Source of the DNA: Cyclobacteriaceae bacterium
GTDB lineage: Bacteria; Bacteroidota; Bacteroidia; Cytophagales; Cyclobacteriaceae
DNA: 64,000 nt
Direction: 5' to 3'
NCBI GenBank assembly: GCA_019638395.1
Contig: JAHBTX010000002.1
Location: forward strand, 744,001-808,000
The position numbers and the translations under genes are program-made. Positions 19,596-47,310 of the stretch are shown piece by piece. Every line of letters starts with the position of its first letter. Position 1 is the stretch's first letter. Under the pieces are notes generated by a model. That model saw only the letters and a list, made by a program, of their open reading frames with translations, was not told the origin of the DNA and made no database searches.

Positions 19596-21820
19596 TTACT
19601 TAATTACTATTAGTCGCTTGGTCTGGTTGTTAACGGATGTTTTGAGTGTGTAAAAATAAACTCCGGCTTGAAATGCTGAGATATCGTATTCATGTTTGTG
19701 CTGGCCCGGGGATTTAAATTCATTTATTGGATTAGCCGCCTCGCGACCCGTTACATCAAAAATTTTCAAATTAACCATTGACTCGGTTTCTAAGAAATAT
19801 TGAATGGTAACGGTTTCATGGGCAGGATTAGGGTAAATAGCAAACTGTTGGCTCTCTCTTGCTAACTGCTCCAGAGGAACTTCTGCTGGCCGTGCCCTTA
19901 GGTTTCGTAGCGGGGTGTTATACAGTGGACCATTGCAAAATACTTGAATTTCTGCCTGCGTAGCCGGTGCAACATAGGATGGAATATGGCCGTTGGGCAG
20001 CCCCGTCTTTAGTGTAACATTGGGTGGGATGGTTGCCCCAGGCAACACTATGATATTAGGGGCGGTGATAACCCTGTTTCCAGTAAACGTAACGCCTGGC
20101 CCAATTATAATTTTGTCCCATGCATTAACATTATAACCGACAATTTGATTGGCCATCAAAACTTCAGTAGGAGTATTACAATAGGGCGGGGCAAACGTAA
20201 ATGATTGACCATTTATTTGCTCAATGGGATAGTTTAAAGCCATTAAGATGTTTTGTGTATTTGCATCGGAGTCAATCCGTTCTAAATTTATTAATAGACG
20301 TAATGAAATTGGCTGATTTCCAGAGCACCCAATGGGTGATGGTGGATAGAACAACTGGCCGTCATATGAACTTGCCTGACCAGCTTCAACACTGAAAGAG
20401 CCAATTGCACTTAATGGAACATAGCTTGTTTTAAAATCTCCAAAATCAAGGCTTGCCAGAATTTCTATGTTATCTACCCTTAACCCCGATGCAGGGTTGA
20501 GTACATACTTAATGTTTGCTACCTGATAAATAAATGAATTACGATAATCATAGTGACCATTTGAAGGGTTATCATAATTGTATGATTCCCCTATCTTGGT
20601 ATAAATTTTCGGTGTTTCTAATAGATTAAAAACACCAAGTACTTCATTGTAGTACGCATAATTTATTGGGTTTCTCGTGTGAGCGTTAAGCGATCCAAGT
20701 GTATAAAATGTTATATCACCAAATGAAAACGAGGTGCTTAAGGTGCCTTGCAGGTTAATAGTTGCGTTTAATGCCATAGGCATAATTTTTACTTCCTGTG
20801 GCCCAGCCGACTTTTTGCCTCCACCTACAAAAAAATCTATTAAGTCAACTGCAGCACCGATATAGGGTGCTGCTTTTAGTCCATTTCTTAAAAAAGAATT
20901 TTTCTTAATCTCCTCCTGAAAACTATTTATGGAGTTTCTCTTACTCAATTGTTCTGCTGTAAGTTCGGCATTAGTTTTTCCTTCAATCTTCAATGCCTTC
21001 TCCTGATCGCTTGCAAACTTTGACATTGTTTTATATGTCTTCTGGGCTTTTTTTGCCGTAGTAAGTAATTCTTTTGCATCAAAGGAATAGCTGTTTTCAG
21101 AAACAGAACCCGAACCGCTTGCAATGTTTGTTAATGTACCCGTTAGGCTCCCCGATAAGTTAATTATTGATTCGGTGATCAACTTAGATTCAATAACCAT
21201 ACTTGATTCGTAAAGGCACGTGCAGGGGTCATAGCCGATCTGAAAATCGGCATAAAACCACCGGCCACTATTATTGTTGTAACCCGAGACTGATGTTATA
21301 TTTGGATTAGCCTCAAATTTATCCAGCGCAAAAAGTTTAGAGGCATTGCTCAATGCGGACGACATTTTTCCATCTACATAGCTGATTTCAATTTTTGCTC
21401 CATTAAACGCCTGCGTATAATCACCCGCCACAAAAACCCGCATAACGCCTGTAAATTTATTATACAACACAAGATGTATGTACCCAACCGGGGTTGTTTT
21501 TGGGGTTCCGTCTTCGTTATACCCCAAGTCATATTTAATTAATTCCCAACCATCTTCTGGCAACCGGTCTTGATTATTTAAAAAATGATCAACAAGAATG
21601 TTGTTTGATTGATTAAACGGGGATTCAATTTGTGGAGCGTTTATATATTGAGAATTTATATTATAGATCAAAGCTCGCCAATCGAAAAGGTGTTACGCTT
21701 GTCGGGCCGCTCGGCATTAACGGGTGCATCTGGATTGGTTGTTATTCCTTTTAAGCACTGAGCAAATCCCGTTAAAGAATAAATTGTTATAAGCGTGATT
21801 ATGATTGAGTTTTTCATTTG
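19596..21820 (-). pseudogene. T9SS type A sorting-domain secreted protein, frameshifted near its N-terminus
   Basis: The long frame (stop at 19596) encodes about 690 residues and ends in a T9SS type A sorting domain (FAIYPNPAHETVTIQYF, then DISAFQAGVYFYTLKT, RLIVIK). It lacks a signal peptide and has only a TTG start at 21671. A signal peptide (MKNSIIITLITIYSLTGFAQ) is encoded from ATG 21820 in another frame, which reaches a stop just after 21671. The frames join at the four-A run at 21685-21688: removing two of these bases (or adding one) restores N-T-F-D-W-R-A. Without the shift it would be a secreted, cell-surface protein of about 740 residues. The middle has no recognised enzyme domain. 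Real mutation, phase variation and read error are all possible. Confidence 0.78.
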
Positions 21821-21847
21821 GATATTTTTCTCGAATTGTTCATTGTG

Positions 21848-35579: not shown

Positions 35580-38282
35580 TTACTCACTCCGTAAACTCTT
35601 CACCGGATCGCTGCTCGCGGCACGAAACGATTGAAAACTCATGGTAAGCCATGCTACTATAAACGCGGCTACACCGGCAAATAAGAACAACCCTATTCCT
35701 ATCTCGGTCTTGTACGTATAATCTTTCAGCCACCAGTTAATACCATACCAGGCAACAGGCGATGCAAGTACAAACGCAATGGCTATTAGCTTACCAAACT
35801 CTTTCGATAGCAATAGAACAATACTGCTAACACTGGCACCCAATACTTTACGGATTCCAATTTCCTTGGTACGCTGCTCGGCCGTAAATGCGGTGAGTGC
35901 AAACAACCCTAAACAAGCCACCACAATAGCTAAACCAGTAAATATTCCAATAATTTTTCCAAGACGGGTTTCATTTGCATACATGTTGCTGAATCGCTCA
36001 TCCAAAAAGTAATAGGCAAAGGGTTGGCCGGGTGCCAGTTCCTTCCATTTTGCTTCTACGGTTTCAATAACTTCTTTCGTGTTTTTAGATTGAAATCGGA
36101 ATGAAATCGGGCCACGAGGTTGATCGCTTAAATAAATAATTACCGGTGTTACATTTTGCTTTAACGATTCGAAATGAAAATTTTCCACAACACCAATTAC
36201 CTGCAGTACCTCTAAGTGCTCGCGATCAATTTCACCATCGCCAAAATTACCAAAGGTGGCTATGCGGCTACCTAAAACTTCGTTCGTAAAACCAAAGGCT
36301 TTTACTGCGGCTTCATTTAAAATAACAGCGGTTGAATCAGATGGAAACTCAAGCGAAAAATCGCGACCTTCAATCACTTTCATACCCAATGTTTTGATAT
36401 AATCATAATCAACCTGCCAGTTTTGTACACTCACCATGTTTTCCTGCACGCCCGGATCACGACCTTCAACCCACCAGGGGTTATCATTACGCCACGTTCC
36501 GCTTACGGGCAGAAAACCGGTCATAGTCGAAATTTCCATCTTCCCGCTCCGCATTACTTCATCGCGAAAAGCCATTCGGTTTTTTCCTAACGCATACGCA
36601 TCTTCTATAACCAACACCTGATCTTTGTTAAACCCTAATTTTTTATTCTGAATGTAATTAAGCTGACGATATACAGCCATCGTACCGATTACTAACAGAA
36701 TTGAAACTGCGAATTGAAATACCACGAGCGAACTTCTGATAAATCCGCTTTTCATTCCTAACGCTACATTACCCTTGAGCACACTTACCGGTTTAAATGC
36801 CGAAAGAAAAAAGGAAGGATACACACCAGCCAACACACCTACTACAAGTGTGGCCCCCAGGATAATCATATAAAAATATGGCTCACTAAAAGGAATAAAC
36901 AACTGCCGCGATGAAAGATTATTAAACAATGGCAACAACAGGTAAGCAAGGCTTAGGGCCAGTGCCATCGAAACCATGCTCAATAAGATTGACTCCATTA
37001 AAAACTGACGCACCAGGTGCGAACGAAAGGAACCCATTACTTTACGTATGCCCACTTCTTTAGCACGATTGGCTGAGCGGGCCGTAGATAAATTCATGAA
37101 GTTGATACAAGCGATTATGAGAATGAAAAGAGCAATTGCCGAAAACAAATACACATAGGCAATATCAAAGTTAGGCTCAAACTCTCCCTGCAATGAGCTT
37201 TTGGTATGAATATCAAGTAAGGGCTGAAGCGTGTACTCCATCTTATTACCAGCCGCTTCAAACTTTTCAATAGAAAAATCCTCGCCCCCTAATATTTCGC
37301 CTAACTGTGGCATGGCCCGCTCTATAACCAATCGTGTTAATTTTTGTTCTACCTGCCGGGGGTCTGCATCTGTGTGTAGCAGCATGTAGGTTTGAAAGTT
37401 ATGGCTATACCAAACCGGTTTTTTTGCTTCATCCAAACCGGCCATAGCTATTAGTATATCAAAATGAAAATGGGTATTGGCGGGCAGGGTTTCATAAACG
37501 GCCGTTATTTTCATGTTCATGTTATTGTCCAGTATAAGCGTTTGCCCTAATGCTTCTTCTCGGGGAAAAAACTTATCGGCTGTGCGTTTGCTTATAGCTA
37601 TCGAATTGGGTTCAGCCAAAGCTGTAGCGGGGTTACCGGCAATAACCGGAACGGAAAAAACCTGAAAGAAATCTTTGTCGGCCCAGACTACATGATCTTC
37701 TTTTATGTTTTCTACATCGCGTTTTACCAGGTAAGAACCACGGGTACGAAAGCGAATAGCAGCCTCTACTTCGGGAAACTCTTCCGTTGCGGTGCCGGCC
37801 AGTACAGGTGGCGCATACAACATATTGTAATGGTTGCCGCCAAACTTCAGGTCACTTTTAATGCGATAAATTCTTTCACCGTTTGCAAAGTGGGTATCGT
37901 AACTCAGTTCGTTGCGAACAAACAGTACAATTACAAAACAAATGGCCAATCCAATAGAAAGACCCGCTACATTAATAAATGAATAAAAACTATGCTTGCG
38001 CAGATTGCGCAGGGCTACTGTAAAGTAATTCTTCAGCATATCTTTTGGTTTTTTGTTTTCTGTTTGGATTACCTGTTTTTGTGTATCGCGTAAGCCGGCC
38101 GTGTGTCCGAATTTTTTTAGCACGGTGTGGTACGCATCAATAAATCGTTTTTCTTTTTTTAATTCTTCCTCCACAGCCGAGCACACATGATCAATTAACT
38201 CCTCCTGAATACTATCTGCTACAATACCGCGGTAGTTCAGGTCTTTGGTAATATAATCAATATGTTCGTTTGATAAACTCAT
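35580..38282 (-). CDS. FtsX/MacB-type ABC transporter permease with N-terminal prefix domain
   Basis: A 900-residue inner-membrane permease. Residues about 1-80 are a soluble prefix domain (LSNEHIDYITKDLNYRGI; LIDHVCSAVEEELKKE) seen in permeases linked to PadR regulators. A membrane segment follows near 110-130 (SFINVAGLSIGLAICFVIV), then the MacB periplasmic core, three membrane segments with loop AKEVGIRKVMGSFRSH, a second periplasmic domain and the last FtsX unit with TKEIGIRKVLGASVS. It ends in KSLRSE. The PadR gene lies upstream on the same strand, separated by 95 bp that hold two heptad-repeat arrays. No ATPase gene is adjacent. Substrate unknown. Confidence 0.92.
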   Translation of the reverse strand: MSLSNEHIDYITKDLNYRGIVADSIQEELIDHVCSAVEEELKKEKRFIDAYHTVLKKFGHTAGLRDTQKQVIQTENKKPKDMLKNYFTVALRNLRKHSFYSFINVAGLSIGLAICFVIVLFVRNELSYDTHFANGERIYRIKSDLKFGGNHYNMLYAPPVLAGTATEEFPEVEAAIRFRTRGSYLVKRDVENIKEDHVVWADKDFFQVFSVPVIAGNPATALAEPNSIAISKRTADKFFPREEALGQTLILDNNMNMKITAVYETLPANTHFHFDILIAMAGLDEAKKPVWYSHNFQTYMLLHTDADPRQVEQKLTRLVIERAMPQLGEILGGEDFSIEKFEAAGNKMEYTLQPLLDIHTKSSLQGEFEPNFDIAYVYLFSAIALFILIIACINFMNLSTARSANRAKEVGIRKVMGSFRSHLVRQFLMESILLSMVSMALALSLAYLLLPLFNNLSSRQLFIPFSEPYFYMIILGATLVVGVLAGVYPSFFLSAFKPVSVLKGNVALGMKSGFIRSSLVVFQFAVSILLVIGTMAVYRQLNYIQNKKLGFNKDQVLVIEDAYALGKNRMAFRDEVMRSGKMEISTMTGFLPVSGTWRNDNPWWVEGRDPGVQENMVSVQNWQVDYDYIKTLGMKVIEGRDFSLEFPSDSTAVILNEAAVKAFGFTNEVLGSRIATFGNFGDGEIDREHLEVLQVIGVVENFHFESLKQNVTPVIIYLSDQPRGPISFRFQSKNTKEVIETVEAKWKELAPGQPFAYYFLDERFSNMYANETRLGKIIGIFTGLAIVVACLGLFALTAFTAEQRTKEIGIRKVLGASVSSIVLLLSKEFGKLIAIAFVLASPVAWYGINWWLKDYTYKTEIGIGLFLFAGVAAFIVAWLTMSFQSFRAASSDPVKSLRSE

Positions 38283-38374
38283 TGTTCCTCGTTACTGGCT
38301 TTTTGTTTCTCGCTATAGACTACAACTTTTAAAATCAACTTTAGAAACCAGTCACCAGCGACCAGTAACTAAAA
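38283..38374. repeat. Pair of inverted 7-bp-period repeat arrays, PadR-permease gap
   Basis: Two arrays with a strict 7-base period: 38283-38317 (TGTTCCT, CGTTACT, GGCTTTT, TGTTTCT, CGCTATA) and 38347-38374 (ACCAGTC, ACCAGCG, ACCAGTA, ACTAAAA). The second is, in part, the inverse of the first (GTTACTGG against CCAGTAAC). They fill the gap from the permease start codon to four bases before the PadR stop. They resemble the arrays in the beta-oxidation operon. Confidence 0.6.
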
Positions 38375-42533: not shown

Positions 42534-42995
42534 ATGAAAAGAGAAGAAACCATAGACTATAATATAAAGGCAGCCTGGCACAGCATTGCCCGCATGTACA
42601 ATCAGCAGGCTGCAAAATACCAGGGCACTATGTCAATCGGGTTTGCTTTATTGAACATCCACTCCGAAGAGGGAACACCGGCCACGAAGATCGGGCCCTT
42701 GATGGGTTTGGAACCACGCAGTGTTACGCGACTGCTTAAGTCGATGGAAGAAAAAGGCTTGATTGTAAGAAAAGCTGATAAGAACGATAAACGTTCGGTT
42801 CGCATTTTTCTAACCAAAGAAGGAAAGCGCCATCGCGATAAATCGAAAGAAACGGTATTACGCTTTAATGAAGTAGTACGCGAAGAAATACCAGCCAGCA
42901 AATTGAATGTGTTTTTTGAAGTGGTGCAAAGTGTGAATCAGATTATTGAGAGAAATGGTATTTATGAAGATTTAGTTGTGAATAGTCGGCAGTAA
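42534..42995 (+). CDS. MarR family transcriptional regulator
   Basis: A 153-residue winged-helix regulator. The DNA-binding part runs through GTPATKIGPLMGLEPRSVTR, LLKSMEEKGLIVRKADKNDK and the wing RSVRIFLTKEGKRHRDKSK. It starts the plus-strand group leading into the beta-oxidation genes, so it may respond to fatty acyl compounds; the divergent YceI-porin genes are another target. The last codons and stop (TAA 42993-42995) lie inside a heptad-repeat array, so the C-terminal residues NSRQ come from the repeat. Confidence 0.92.
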   Translation: MKREETIDYNIKAAWHSIARMYNQQAAKYQGTMSIGFALLNIHSEEGTPATKIGPLMGLEPRSVTRLLKSMEEKGLIVRKADKNDKRSVRIFLTKEGKRHRDKSKETVLRFNEVVREEIPASKLNVFFEVVQSVNQIIERNGIYEDLVVNSRQ

Positions 42996-43060
42996 GCAGA
43001 GAGCAGTTGGCAGTAACTGTTCAGATAAAATCCTGCCCACTGCAAACTGCCTATTGCCAA
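42984..43060. repeat. Inverted 7-bp-period repeat arrays, MarR-fadN gap
   Basis: Left array 42984-43018: AGTCGGC, AGTAAGC, AGAGAGC, AGTTGGC, AGTAACT. Right array 43033-43060: CTGCCCA, CTGCAAA, CTGCCTA, TTGCCAA. The right is roughly the inverse of the left (xGCAGTx against xCTGCx). The left array includes the end of the MarR gene with its stop codon. Confidence 0.7.
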
Positions 43061-43094
43061 CTTTAAATTATAATAGACAAAAAAAACCGGTAAC

Positions 43095-45494
43095 ATGAAT
43101 AGAACTATCCGTAAAGTAGCTGTTTTAGGATCGGGCATTATGGGCTCGCGCATTGCCTGCCACTTCGCCAACATTGGTGTAGATGTTTTGCTGCTCGACA
43201 TTGCTCCCAAAGAACTTTCTGAAGACGAAAAGAAAAAAGGTTTAACGCTTGATCATCCGGCTGTAAAAAACCGCATTGTGAATGCTGCGTTTGAGTCAAC
43301 CCTTAAGTCGAACCCGGCCGCATTGTTCAGCAAGAAGTTTGCTTCGCGCGTAAAGCTTGGAAACTTTACCGATGACATGCCCAAAATCGCAACCTACGAC
43401 TGGACAATAGAAGTAGTAGTTGAAAACCTGGATATCAAAAAGAAAGTATATACCGAAGTTGAAAAGTATCGTACACCCGGTACGCTTATCACTTCCAACA
43501 CTTCGGGTATTCCTATTCACTTAATGGCCGAGGGAAGAAGTGAGGATTTTCAAAAACATTTTGCCGGCACGCACTTCTTTAACCCGCCACGGTACCTGAA
43601 ATTACTGGAGATTATTCCAACGGCTAAAACCGACCCTGAGGTAACAAAATTCTTATTGCACTATGGTGATCTTTTCCTCGGTAAAACTACCGTGTTGTGT
43701 AAAGACACGCCCGCTTTTATCGGCAATCGTGTTGGCGTGTGGGGCTTATTGAAAGTAATTGACTCCATGCGCAAGTACGATCTTAATGTAGATGAGATTG
43801 ATAAACTTACGGGCCCCGTTATCGGCAGACCAAAATCAGCCACATTCAGAACTTCGGATGTAGTTGGGTTGGATACATTGGTAAAAGTAGCCAACAACCT
43901 GTATGCAGGTTTGCCCAATGATGAAGGTCGCGAAATGTTTAAGCTACCCGAAGCAGTAAATAAACTGGAACAGAATAAATGGTTGGGCGATAAAACCGGT
44001 CAGGGTTTTTATAAGAAGTCTAAAAACGCAAAAGGCGAAACTGAAATTCTTACGCTCGATCTGAAAACATTCGAGTATCAACCAAAGGCAAAAGCAAAAT
44101 TTGCTACCCTCGAAACAACCAAGACAATTGATAATCTAAAAGATCGCTTTAAAGTATTGCTTGCCGGTAAAGACAAAGCCGGTGATTTTTACCGCGATAT
44201 GTTTTTTGATTTGTTTAAGTATGTGAGCAATCGCATTCCCGAAATCAGCGATGAGTTATTCCGCATTGATGATGCTGTAAGCGGTGGTTTCGGTTGGGAT
44301 CTGGGGCCGTTCGAAACATGGGATGCTGTTGGTGTAGAGAAAAGTATCTCTTTAATGGAAGCCGCAGGTTACAAACCCAATCAATGGGTGTACGATATGC
44401 TGGCTGCAGGCAACAAATCGTTTTACAAAACCGAGGGCGGCACTAAAAAGTATTACGATATTCCTTCTAAGTCATACAAATCCATTCCAGGTCGCGAAAG
44501 CTTTATCATTTTAGAAAGCAAAAGCGACAGCGTGGTTTGGAAAAATGCCGAATCAAAAGTTACTGACATTGGCGATGGTGTGCTCAACTTCTCGTGGAGT
44601 TCGAAGAGTTATACCCTCGGCAGCAGTGTAATTGAAGGCATGAATAAAGCCATTGATCTCGCTGAGAAAGATTACAAAGGGTTGGTGGTTGGCCATCAAG
44701 GTCCCGACTTCTCGCTTGGCGCGAACCTGGGTCTGGTATTTATGTATGCCATCGAACAGGATTATGACGAAATCGATTTTATGATTCGCGCGTTCCAGAA
44801 TTCGGTGATGCGTTTGCGTTATTCATCCATACCGGTAGTGGTTGCTCCGCAAGGACGCACGTTGGGTGGTGGTTGCGAAATGACTATGCATGCCGACATC
44901 GCGCAAGCAGCAGCCGAAACCTACATCGGACTTGTTGAAGTTGGCGTTGGTCTTATTCCGGGCGGTGGCGGTACAAAAGAGTTTGCCAAACGCGTAAGCG
45001 ATTCATTGCAGGAAGGTGATGTAGAATTGAATGCACTACAAAATGCTTTCATGACAATAGCCACGGCAAAAGTGGCAACCTCAGCGGAAGAAGCACGAGA
45101 ACTTGGTATTTTAAAAACGGTGGATCGCGTAAGCATGAATAAAGACCGCCAGATCGCTGATGCAAAGCAAGCCGTTCTTGATTTGGTTGAAGCCGGTTAC
45201 ACCATGCCACAACAAGCAAAGAATATTAAAGTACAAGGTCGCACGGGGCAGGCATTATTCCTTGCGGGATTGCAAGGCATGTTAATGGGCCGTTACATTT
45301 CTGAGCACGATGCCAAAATTGCGAAATGGATTGCCAATGTAATGTGTGGTGGCGACCTCAGCTATGCACAAGAAGTATCCGAACAGTATTTATTAGACCT
45401 CGAACGTGAAGCATTCTTATCATTAACCGGTGAGAAGAAGACACTGGAGCGGATTCAATCGATATTGACGGGGGGGAAACCTTTACGCAATTGA
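43095..45494 (+). CDS. fadN: 3-hydroxyacyl-CoA dehydrogenase / enoyl-CoA hydratase (FadN-like)
   Basis: A 799-residue bifunctional beta-oxidation enzyme. The NAD-binding dehydrogenase comes first (VAVLGSGIMGSRIACHFAN at residue 8; substrate part to about 450, with FAGTHFFNPPRYLKLLEII and KDTPAFIGNRVG). The crotonase domain follows at about 490-730 (GHQGPDFSLGANLGL; APQGRTLGGGCEMTMHADI; GVGLIPGGGGTKEFAKR). This order, dehydrogenase before hydratase, is that of Bacillus FadN, the reverse of E. coli FadB. Thiolase and acyl-CoA dehydrogenase genes follow, as in fadNAE. Its TGA stop lies in a heptad array. Confidence 0.93.
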   Translation: MNRTIRKVAVLGSGIMGSRIACHFANIGVDVLLLDIAPKELSEDEKKKGLTLDHPAVKNRIVNAAFESTLKSNPAALFSKKFASRVKLGNFTDDMPKIATYDWTIEVVVENLDIKKKVYTEVEKYRTPGTLITSNTSGIPIHLMAEGRSEDFQKHFAGTHFFNPPRYLKLLEIIPTAKTDPEVTKFLLHYGDLFLGKTTVLCKDTPAFIGNRVGVWGLLKVIDSMRKYDLNVDEIDKLTGPVIGRPKSATFRTSDVVGLDTLVKVANNLYAGLPNDEGREMFKLPEAVNKLEQNKWLGDKTGQGFYKKSKNAKGETEILTLDLKTFEYQPKAKAKFATLETTKTIDNLKDRFKVLLAGKDKAGDFYRDMFFDLFKYVSNRIPEISDELFRIDDAVSGGFGWDLGPFETWDAVGVEKSISLMEAAGYKPNQWVYDMLAAGNKSFYKTEGGTKKYYDIPSKSYKSIPGRESFIILESKSDSVVWKNAESKVTDIGDGVLNFSWSSKSYTLGSSVIEGMNKAIDLAEKDYKGLVVGHQGPDFSLGANLGLVFMYAIEQDYDEIDFMIRAFQNSVMRLRYSSIPVVVAPQGRTLGGGCEMTMHADIAQAAAETYIGLVEVGVGLIPGGGGTKEFAKRVSDSLQEGDVELNALQNAFMTIATAKVATSAEEARELGILKTVDRVSMNKDRQIADAKQAVLDLVEAGYTMPQQAKNIKVQGRTGQALFLAGLQGMLMGRYISEHDAKIAKWIANVMCGGDLSYAQEVSEQYLLDLEREAFLSLTGEKKTLERIQSILTGGKPLRN

Positions 45495-45591
45495 CAAAAG
45501 GCAATTAACAATATGCAAAGTGAGAGTGGAAATCTAAGATAGTGTAGAACAATCAAAGGTGTGAGCAAAACATTGTCAATTGTCAACTAAG
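45490..45591. repeat. Inverted 7-bp-period repeat arrays, fadN to four-helix-bundle gap
   Basis: Left 45490-45524: ATTGACA, AAAGGCA, ATTAACA, ATATGCA, AAGTGAG; right 45557-45591: AGGTGTG, AGCAAAA, CATTGTC, AATTGTC, AACTAAG. The TTGACA-type units face TGTCAA-type units. The stop codon of fadN (TGA 45492-45494) is in the first unit. Confidence 0.7.
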
Positions 45592-45597
45592 TAAGAT

Positions 45598-45978
45598 ATG
45601 GCAGCACAAACATTTAGAGATTTAACTGTTTATAAAAAGGCGTTCGAACTAGCTATGGCTATTTTCAAAACATCAAAAGCGTTTCCACCTGAAGAGCGAT
45701 ACTCGTTAACTGATCAGGTAAGAAGATCTTCCCGTTCAGTTTGTTCTAGCATAGGTGAAGCATATAGAAAAAGACAATATAAGGCGCACTTTGTAAGTAA
45801 ATCATCAGATGCAGACATGGAGAATACAGAAACTCGCGTCTGGTTGGATTTTGCATTAGCGTGCGGATACATCTCCCAAAAAACGTGGGATGACTTTGAA
45901 TTAAAGGCCGATGAAGTTGGAAAACTTCTCAACCACATGATAGAAAACCCAGAAAAGTATTTTCGAAAGCAAAAATAG
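45598..45978 (+). CDS. Four-helix-bundle protein (S23/IVS-like)
   Basis: A 126-residue protein of the four-helix-bundle family first met in intervening sequences of 23S rRNA genes (IVS/S23) and related to the Avd accessory proteins of diversity-generating retroelements. Family features are FRDLTVYKKAFELAMAIF, SLTDQVRRSSRSVCSSIGEA and the helix ADMENTETRVWLDFALACGY. Function unknown. No rRNA gene or reverse transcriptase is nearby. It stands alone between two beta-oxidation genes, flanked on both sides by heptad arrays, which suggests insertion into the operon. Start is ATG 45598, seven bases after the array. Confidence 0.88.
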   Translation: MAAQTFRDLTVYKKAFELAMAIFKTSKAFPPEERYSLTDQVRRSSRSVCSSIGEAYRKRQYKAHFVSKSSDADMENTETRVWLDFALACGYISQKTWDDFELKADEVGKLLNHMIENPEKYFRKQK

Positions 45979-45994
45979 AAACAAGGCTGTGACT

Positions 45995-46029
45995 ATTGTC
46001 AACTGCCTTTTGTCACTTGTCAATTTAAC
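45995..46029. repeat. 7-bp-period repeat array before the thiolase gene
   Basis: Units ATTGTCA, ACTGCCT, TTTGTCA, CTTGTCA, ATTTAAC in strict 7-base phase, ending 10 bp before the thiolase start. Only the rightward half is present here, unlike the paired arrays elsewhere. Confidence 0.65.
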
Positions 46030-46039
46030 TAAGAAAGAT

Positions 46040-47215
46040 ATGGACGCATACATCGTAGCAGGATTCAGAACCGGAGTGGGCAAAGCTAAAAAAGGTGGGT
46101 TTCGTTTTACACGACCCGATGATTTGGCCGCTGACGTAATCAAACATCTGGTGAAATCAATTCCCGGATTGGAAAACAAAATGGTCGATGACCTGATTGT
46201 GGGCAATGCCGTGCCCGAAGCCGATCAAGGCATGCAAATGGGCCGCATGATTTCATTGCTTGCTTTGGGCATTGACACACCCGGCATGGTGGTGAACCGC
46301 TACTGTGGTTCAGGTGTGGAAACTATTGCCATAGCCAGCCAACGTATACAAGCGGGGCAAGCCGATGTGATTATTGCCGGTGGCACCGAGTCGATGTCGC
46401 TCGTGCCGGTAATGGGTTTTAAAACTGCACTTAATTATACCATCGCTAAAGACAACCCGACTTACTATACCAGCATGGGCCTTACGGCCGAAGAAGTTTC
46501 TAAGCAATTCAAAATCACGCGCGAAGAACAAGATCAGTTTTCGTACGAGAGCCACATGAAAGCCGCTGCTGCGTGGAAAGAAGGCAAGTTTAAAGATGAG
46601 GTTGTGCCCATCACCGTAAAGGAAACGTACGTGGATGAAAACATGAAAAAGAAAACACGTGAGTTTGTAGTGGCCACCGATGAAGGTATTCGTGCCGACA
46701 CAACCGTAGAAGGATTGGCAAAACTGAAACCCGTATTCGCGATGGGTGGAAGCGTTACGGCCGGTAACTCATCACAAACATCGGATGGGGCTGCGTTTGT
46801 TGCCGTAATGAGCGAGCGCATGGTAAAACAATTAAATCTTAAACCCATTGCCCGTATGGTAAGCTATGCTACTGCCGGAGTTGATCCCCGCATTATGGGT
46901 ATTGGTCCGGTAGCAGCTATTCCAAAAGCATTAAAGATTGCCGGACTCAAGCAAGATGATATCGATCTGTTTGAACTGAACGAAGCCTTTGCAGCACAAT
47001 CATTAGCCGTTGTAAAAGAATTAGGCATCGATCGCACCAAGTTGAATGTGAATGGTGGAGCCATTGCCGTGGGTCATCCGCTCGGTTCATCCGGTGCACG
47101 GTTATCGGTACAACTTTTTAACGAGCTACGCAGACGCAACAAGAAGTACGGAATGGTTACCGCATGCGTGGGTGGCGGACAAGGAGTAGCGGGGATTTAC
47201 GAGTTACTAAGTTGA
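46040..47215 (+). CDS. fadA: Acetyl-CoA acyltransferase (3-ketoacyl-CoA thiolase)
   Basis: A 391-residue thiolase that cleaves 3-ketoacyl-CoA in the last step of beta-oxidation. ATG 46040 starts the conserved N-terminus (MDAYIVAGFRTGVGKAKKG); a longer frame from 45989 reads through the repeat array. The nucleophile is Cys89 in NRYCGSGVETI, the general His is in GGAIAVGHPLGSSGAR, and the second catalytic Cys is in TACVGGGQG. Length typical. Second enzyme of the fadNAE-like operon. Its TGA stop (47213-47215) lies in the following heptad array. Confidence 0.95.
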   Translation: MDAYIVAGFRTGVGKAKKGGFRFTRPDDLAADVIKHLVKSIPGLENKMVDDLIVGNAVPEADQGMQMGRMISLLALGIDTPGMVVNRYCGSGVETIAIASQRIQAGQADVIIAGGTESMSLVPVMGFKTALNYTIAKDNPTYYTSMGLTAEEVSKQFKITREEQDQFSYESHMKAAAAWKEGKFKDEVVPITVKETYVDENMKKKTREFVVATDEGIRADTTVEGLAKLKPVFAMGGSVTAGNSSQTSDGAAFVAVMSERMVKQLNLKPIARMVSYATAGVDPRIMGIGPVAAIPKALKIAGLKQDDIDLFELNEAFAAQSLAVVKELGIDRTKLNVNGGAIAVGHPLGSSGARLSVQLFNELRRRNKKYGMVTACVGGGQGVAGIYELLS

Positions 47216-47270
47216 CAGTTGACAATGAGCAATTGACAATCCGTTGTCAACTGCCTTTTGTCAATTGTTT
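47211..47270. repeat. Inverted 7-bp-period repeat arrays, thiolase to acyl-CoA dehydrogenase gap
   Basis: Left 47211-47238: GTTGACA, GTTGACA, ATGAGCA, ATTGACA; right 47243-47270: GTTGTCA, ACTGCCT, TTTGTCA, ATTGTTT. Clear inverted pairing of TTGACA with TGTCAA, only four bases apart. The thiolase stop codon is within the first unit. Confidence 0.75.
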
Positions 47271-47310
47271 ATTTCTAAATAATAAGAGAAAAGTTTAATC
47301 ATCAAGAGCA

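Follow-up and report, generated by a model that had tools for sequence, protein, structure and literature searches.

Seven-base arrays around an S23 gene and in ORF-less hairpins of a Cyclobacteriaceae genome: probable ends of small mobile elements resembling rRNA intervening sequences

REPINs are small inverted-repeat hairpins dispersed within one genome, and the clade of the linked RAYT gene goes with the repeat type. The short tandemly repeated sequences of cyanobacteria (STRRs) are 7-base intergenic repeats, described as direct. The TAACTGA heptamer repeats (MacGregor 2015) are likewise 7-base intergenic direct repeats, and no link to S23 was found in the available part of their description (PMC4679880). 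Closest to the locus presented here is the intervening sequence (IVS) of the Coxiella 23S rRNA, which, as far as the accessible part of its description goes, is about 430 nt long, patchily distributed and made of one S23p ORF, a 28-bp terminal stem and heptameric repeats (GACAGAT) ahead of the S23p start (PMC4990558). What is the S23 protein doing there? A relative from Xanthomonas forms a toroidal homopentamer; according to the accessible part of the same source, S23 proteins have no known function and it is unclear where rRNA intervening sequences came from, and an older proposal cited there has the IVS ORF serve mobility (PMC4990558). In open-licence full text, no literature link between S23 genes outside rRNA and heptamer arrays was found.

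An S23 gene between two inverted arms

The window, which is the whole 64,000-nucleotide stretch analysed, comes from a 0.96-Mb contig of a 4.78-Mb genome. The region of interest holds marR-like, fadJ-like, thiolase and acyl-CoA dehydrogenase genes, and an initial annotation had placed strict 7-base arrays in four of its gaps. That annotation overlooked a gene. The ORF at 45598-45978 (plus strand) encodes a 126-aa S23 or 23S rRNA intervening-sequence protein (IVP), a four helix bundle matching PF05635 (E 1.2e-30, above the cut-off) and TIGR02436 (E 4e-26). Its solved relatives are 2rld and 2gsc, and its nearest records are Cyclobacteriaceae MAGs. Because this gene lies between the two middle arrays, the arrays can be tied to the known intervening-sequence family; because the middle gaps flank it with matching inverted arms, the four gaps are two ORF-less hairpins plus one arm pair around an S23 gene.

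Reverse-complemented, the right arm of the S23 element (45994-46025, plus strand), CAAGTGACAAAAGGCAGTTGACAATA, matches its left arm (45488-45513, plus strand, unit type TTGACAA), CAATTGACAAAAGGCAATTAACAATA; the right arm ends just short of position 46040, where the thiolase gene begins. Ahead of the S23 start lies one more half array of the right type, ATTGTCAATTGTCAACT (45572-45588, plus strand), and the 17 bases at 45585-45601 recur with one difference at 46027-46043, ahead of the thiolase start; half array and 17-base repeat are both absent in a close relative (L038). The first ORF-less hairpin (42984-43062, no strand assigned) fills the gap between the marR-like and fadJ-like genes and is of the TTGGCAG type, its left arm reading AGTCGGC, AGTAAGC, AGAGAGC, AGTTGGC and its right arm CTGCCCA, CTGCAAA, CTGCCTA, TTGCCAA. 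In relatives, units of this type also flank S23 genes of this operon (for example L039, L044 and L051, by eye). The second hairpin (47210-47267, no strand assigned, unit type TTGACAA) lies between the thiolase and acyl-CoA dehydrogenase genes and belongs to a dispersed family. The arrays start within the final codons of the upstream genes and supply the TGA stops of fadJ (45492-45494, in the S23 element's left arm) and of thiolase (47213-47215, carried by the second hairpin). A possible extra degenerate inverted pair of the ACCAGTA type, GTTACTGG ... CCAGTCACCAGCGACCAGTAAC, occupies another gap of the window (38263-38372, no strand assigned; period-7 score 0.50 at 38313).

How strict is the 7-base phase? 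Scored against 2000 dinucleotide shuffles per gap, the period-7 self-match is 0.487 versus 0.246 at 42984-43066 (z 4.81, reached by one shuffle in 2000) and 0.534 versus 0.258 at 47208-47272 (z 4.83, reached by none). The two middle gaps are weaker, with z 2.27 and p 0.02 at 45486-45596 (p 0.051 without the first units, which lie inside fadJ) and z 2.13 and p 0.017 at 45979-46039. The phase claimed for all four gaps is therefore strong in the outer two and weaker in the middle two; the periodicity is real against shuffles, and it is degenerate rather than strict. That the unit changes between gaps while the 7-base phase stays was correctly noticed (TTGGCAG versus TTGACAA types), and arrays occur elsewhere in the genome and in relatives. 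Over the 64 kb, the two top 50-base windows for period 7 begin at 43030 and 47184 (0.56 each), the next score 0.54 and 0.50, and the maxima for other periods are 0.50-0.60; with such close runners-up the phase by itself is not extreme, so it is the inverted arms that make the case. Autocorrelation beyond the window gave only a modest period-7 excess in a sample of 464 kb out of 4.78 Mb (the window and 20 further stretches of 20 kb). At a threshold of 0.6 there are 12 runs of period 7, with 0-9 for other periods (nine for period 12), and at 0.55 period 7 is found in 10 of 215 gaps, with 0-8 for other periods; one of those ten gaps (window 21444-21847) is not array-like and two are the window's own.

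The facing arrays had been expected to fold, and the outer ones do so in prediction: the RNA fold z is -5.84 for the 42984 gap and -6.44 for the 47208 gap, and their arms are inverted. The gap at 45484-45596 gives -1.23. On the minus strand the same three gaps reach -6.95, -6.69 and -2.38, about equal to or better than the sense strand. Folded as a whole, the S23 element is no better than its shuffles (z -0.93), and its two arms do pair in the predicted fold. Could the arrays be RNA-level control sites, with S23 or a host protein binding the mRNA, the hairpins setting processing, stability or translation, and S23 a regulator with a regulon? The strong predicted hairpins and the same-strand, read-through position would suit such a role, as would the cutting of the rRNA IVS stem by RNase III (accessible part of PMC4990558) and the requirement for the S23 relative Avd, together with reverse transcriptase, in retrohoming (accessible part of PMC10053308). 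Against this, mismatches in the sense-strand stems are G-U in 132 cases and A-C in 131, and the minus strand folds equally well. The equal counts give no sign that stem pairing has been maintained in the sense RNA; they agree with DNA, or else unpaired units, being what is recognised. Further, no S23 of the matching type was seen by eye in this genome to go with the TTGGCAG hairpin at 42984, whether this operon carries an array is erratic among relatives, and one hairpin sits in a convergent gap. A role through RNA pairing, as first suggested, thus finds no support in these tests; some role in RNA may exist all the same, and we rate the control-site explanation as unlikely.

Arrays, units and S23 proteins across loci

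Is the S23 gene of the window alone in having arrays at its sides? The genome holds five PF05635 genes, all flanked by arrays, with five different units (by eye). Across the genome and its relatives PF05635 is present in 49 of 57 genomes, and it is found in none of 14 control genomes; the phage records searched for S23 gave no match. A divergent PF05635 member (L005, G000:C21:328109-328387; 45 bits) has a TGATTTA-type array and stands upstream of a dxr-like gene (by eye).

A wider collection of 275 loci yielded 221 S23 ORFs, 202 of them unique, and 196 were tested once short flanks and S23 lengths outside 100-165 aa had been dropped. A period-7 or period-8 array is present in at least one flank of 172 of the 196 loci and in both flanks of 91; in 24 neither flank reaches the cut-off. 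Among the 125 loci of the genome and its relatives, the flanks at or above 0.55 number 71 upstream and 68 downstream for period 7, 14 and 18 for period 8, and at most 5 for any other period. The 76 loci of named genomes give 52 and 50 for period 7 and at most 6 for other periods. Overall, period 7 marks 234 of 392 S23 flanks; the controls give 21 of 135 for other gaps within these loci and 10 of 378 for windows lying 750-900 bp off. The arms also match each other: the best 28-bp arm-to-arm match is 0.76 (172 loci) versus 0.62 for arms taken from different loci (150 draws), which is a fairer control than the fall from 0.76 to 0.52 on a register shift, a value biased by the picking of the best register. 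Own arms reach the cross-locus 95% level at 85 of the 125 strand-oriented loci of the genome and its relatives, and at only 30 of the 76 named-genome loci, where many share one unit. The most frequent number of units per arm is five, towards which the 35-base window biases the count. G exceeds C in 78 of 91 upstream arms, C exceeds G in 74 of 91 downstream arms and both hold in 66 of 91, so the units tend to a fixed polarity. Of the upstream neighbours, 114 of 119 and 66 of 72 are codirectional with S23; the share among neighbours of other kinds is 0.75-0.76 (p 1.2e-9 and 5e-4, the orthologous loci not being independent).

Plasmids carry such genes too. S23 matches were found in 21 plasmid records, and among the 13 read, 11 genes have at least one flank reaching 0.55 at period 7, 8 or 9, in flanks whose G-richness favours any period. 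Both flanks stay below 0.55 at L277 (0.51) and L288, and the two flanks of L285 are not inverted. The plasmid arrays include those of Nostoc relatives (8 and 9 bases) and of Azospirillum lipoferum (7). Six S23 genes on cyanobacterial plasmids, with arrays of 8 or 9 bases (L276, L279, L280, L283, L284 and L286), adjoin genes for a tyrosine recombinase or integrase, a possible partner enzyme. On a Pseudanabaena galeata plasmid (L288) the S23 gene follows immediately after cas1-cas2, with no array seen.

The spelling of the unit goes with the version of the protein. By eye, the SFRDLxVYKK subfamily is found with GGCAGTT or TTGACAA, NNYKELK with TTAGTCC, HNLKELK with GATTTGA and HNFKELK with AAGACAT; 8-base groups exist as well, for example EKFEDLKCWQ with AAGTGTTG. 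GGCA-type units recur with xFxxLxVYxKAF proteins in Bacteroidota groups and in records of Ignavibacterium, Scalindua, Cloacimonadota and Caldithrix (by eye). Unit similarity correlates with S23 identity (Mantel r 0.556; permutations mean 0.002, sd 0.025, none of 1000 as high) over 17565 of 19110 pairs, the other 1545 having been dropped for homologous neighbours or a shared locus. The unit of the nearest S23 relative that shares no neighbours falls in the top 5% at 66 of 196 loci (9.8 expected). The period follows the protein too: the S23 tree needs 12 changes between 7, 8 and 9, against a mean of 25.0 and a minimum of 22 in 300 shuffles, with 162 of 209 proteins labelled 7, 8 or 9, 45 without a period and two at 5 or 6. 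This pairing of unit and protein version suggests that the S23 protein recognises the repeat unit.

A much plainer origin, needing no dedicated protein, would be tandem-repeat slippage in intergenic DNA that tolerates it. Its precedent is the report of heptamer arrays in Bacteroidetes and Cyanobacteria for which no partner is known (accessible part of PMC4679880). Slippage, however, yields direct rather than inverted arms, and it leaves the S23 association, the correlation of unit with protein and the dispersed copies of 58-75 bp described below unexplained; already disfavoured, it is in our judgement highly improbable.

Orthologous gaps and dispersed hairpins

The arrays had been suspected of a link to insertion, and orthologous gaps bear this out: the same gap may be bare, hold an ORF-less hairpin or hold an S23 insert, which brings its length to about 390-570 bp. 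Taking as S23-size any gap of at least 380 bp (checked by eye, not singly by profile) and as hairpin any gap with a whole-gap z of -3 or lower against mononucleotide shuffles (which misses some, such as the genome's own 42996-43094 at -2.3), the classes S23-size, hairpin and neither count 1, 2 and 26 in the marR-fadJ gap (n = 29), 14, 6 and 9 in fadJ-fadA (n = 29), 15, 5 and 10 in fadA-fadE (n = 30) and 6, 0 and 22 in sufB-sufC (n = 28), where three gaps have just 10-18 bp. A metH gap shows S23 inserts plus shorter fragments. Two relics (L292 and L293) retain an S23 tail and an arm, and some ORF-less forms are thus deletion relics. In the fadA-fadE gap (L036-L065) several relatives each have a hairpin, but of different unit types (TTGAC, GGCAG or TTAGTCC), as though one had taken the place of another; simple insertion does not explain this. 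S23 elements recur behind the end of fadJ-like genes (L198-L200, L210, L243, L262, L266 and L036-L065, by eye), including in records outside the genome set of the window, and at L071 one also stands ahead of fadJ.

The TTGACA-type hairpin is dispersed over the genome. The pattern TTGACANTTGACA occurs exactly 18 times, at 15 places of which two lie in the window; with one mismatch allowed it occurs 47 times, compared with 26 for the reversed pattern. Outside the window, all 13 exact places were read together with five that have one mismatch, 18 in total. Eight are clean hairpins of 63-75 bp, two (L358 and L361) are partial, four (L349, L350, L353 and L354) have shorter or other arrangements, and four one-mismatch places (L363-L366) have no clear hairpin. 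The clean hairpins and the window's own, of 58 bp, have about four units per arm; one of them (L355) is mixed and was left out of the hairpin alignment. None of the nine TTGACA-type hairpins read, at 58-75 bp, has room for an S23 gene, and the solo hairpins resemble the S23 element in their TTGACAA arms, the autonomy of such a parent being putative. No target-site duplication was seen by eye at the dispersed hairpins read. No base-precise empty site was found, the flanks being too diverged at the one solo site compared in relatives.

Do the hairpins go with a cognate S23 gene? As a plain DNA query, one hairpin (L351) found many scattered matches in its own and related genomes. A model built from eight hairpins (R1), used with strict match filters, gives 36 matches in its own genome, both strands counted, and matches in 28 of 57 genomes. 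SFRDLTVYKK-type S23 is present in 13 genomes, of which 11 are matched (median 14), and absent from 44, of which 17 are matched (median 0); the contrast has p 2.4e-5, or 0.0017 within the genus only, with the kinship of genomes ignored, and the identity cut-offs for a cognate S23 (58%, which defines this set, and 74%) were chosen after the lists were seen. TTAGTC arrays behave similarly towards the NNYKELK type, with 3, 5, 9, 10 and 40 hits in genomes that have it and a median of 0 in the 52 without (p 4.9e-5; genus only, 4.0e-4; kinship ignored); chance would give about 0.5 hits per genome for 12 fixed bases by our own arithmetic. TTAGTC arrays do not track the SFRDL type (p 0.22, kinship ignored), and genomes that have the other S23 type are also richer in TTGAC hairpins (p 0.007, kinship ignored). 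Over all 57 genomes the TTAGTC pattern has 115 hits versus 156 for its reversed control, which reads as another unit type (AATCAGN) and was for that reason probably no true null. Exceptions exist in both directions: G011 has 35 model matches (both strands) despite having no SFRDLTVYKK-type S23, and G003 and G033 have that S23 and zero R1 matches. Two of the 13 genomes with the gene (G007 and G014) carry a stop inside it.

The matches in G011 also leave room for a different mover. The hairpins might be moved by another encoded enzyme, such as a REP-associated Y1 transposase or an IS transposase, with S23 a passenger. RAYT-mobilised REPINs are an established precedent for this, some cyanobacterial S23 genes adjoin a tyrosine recombinase, and to our knowledge no nuclease activity of S23 has been described. 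Against this, unit spelling and period track the protein among loci with unrelated neighbours, and across phyla by eye, and S23 genes of Azospirillum and of cyanobacterial plasmids share a similar layout. We regard a passenger role as improbable.

Proposed mechanism and relation to known systems

What is seen directly is the anatomy, the association of arrays with S23 genes, the tracking of S23 relatedness by unit and period, the presence, absence and relics in orthologous gaps, and the dispersal of the hairpins; from these we infer that S23 binds the units and that the element moves. On balance we think it probable that the arrays are the ends of small IVS-like mobile elements outside rRNA, that the ORF-less hairpins are non-autonomous derivatives and that S23 is the recognition factor. 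The arrays would be the terminal inverted repeats of elements that carry one S23/IVP four-helix-bundle gene and sit between protein genes, and the gene-less TTGACA-type hairpins of 58-75 bp would derive from the same elements. The S23 protein, presumably a ring-shaped homopentamer like its solved relative, would bind units of its own type, probably several together, at a spacing of 7, 8 or 9 bases. Binding would mark the element for copying or insertion, and the cutting could be done by S23 itself or by a borrowed enzyme. The position behind a codirectional gene would let S23 be read through with neither neighbour harmed.

Spacings of 7, 8 and 9 bases share no phase of the DNA helix, and on this ground we favour, as a conjecture, a flexible strand wrapped on the ring. 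A broader and more tentative reading, which we hold with clearly less confidence, would make S23/IVP the recognition, perhaps mobilising, partner of widespread mobile elements with 7-, 8- or 9-base arrays and clade-specific units. The rRNA IVS would then be the rRNA-resident branch, the gene of these elements would be what several phyla have as orphan 'four helix bundle protein' genes, and several units of one strand would possibly be threaded round the pentameric ring, as RNA is wound on TRAP. If the pairing of unit and protein is real binding, it gives S23 a target that can be probed directly (one protein, one short array) and may explain heptamer repeats in Bacteroidota and Cyanobacteria. 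It would also add to the known elements one that has no recognised transposase and uses a code of short units, spaced differently from clade to clade.

How does this compare with what has been described? The MITEs are alike in having ORF-less copies with terminal repeats like those of a gene-bearing element, and unlike in that here the presumed parent has no transposase and target duplication was not found by eye. REPINs share the dispersed short inverted repeats forming hairpins; here the gene at the locus is a four-helix-bundle PF05635 gene rather than a Y1 HUH transposase, and the arms are made of 7-9-base units. With the TAACTGA repeats and the STRRs the arrays have in common 7-base intergenic repeats in Bacteroidetes and Cyanobacteria; unlike the former, the units are of TTGACAA and TTGGCAG types in inverted arms, not tandem copies of TAACTGA. 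Avd of the diversity-generating retroelements is a homologous four-helix bundle (NF033474, E 3.6e-07; 30.5 bits, below the cut-off of 80). The rRNA IVS stands nearest, with an S23/PF05635 ORF, a similar size, terminal inverted repeats forming a stem, and heptamers. The initial annotation knew no named element with these properties; no full match was found, and the heptamers beside the S23 ORF and the 28-bp stem in Coxiella are a partial one (accessible part of PMC4990558). The element of the window lies between fadJ-like and thiolase genes and not within a 16S or 23S rRNA gene, and Rfam gave no match at gathering score in the window. Here, moreover, there are several per genome, the unit differs by S23 clade and ORF-less hairpins are dispersed. 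The S23 ORF, the stem and the heptamers were thus known already from the Coxiella IVS; what is added is the location outside rRNA, the many units, the pairing of protein and unit, and the dispersed ORF-less hairpins.
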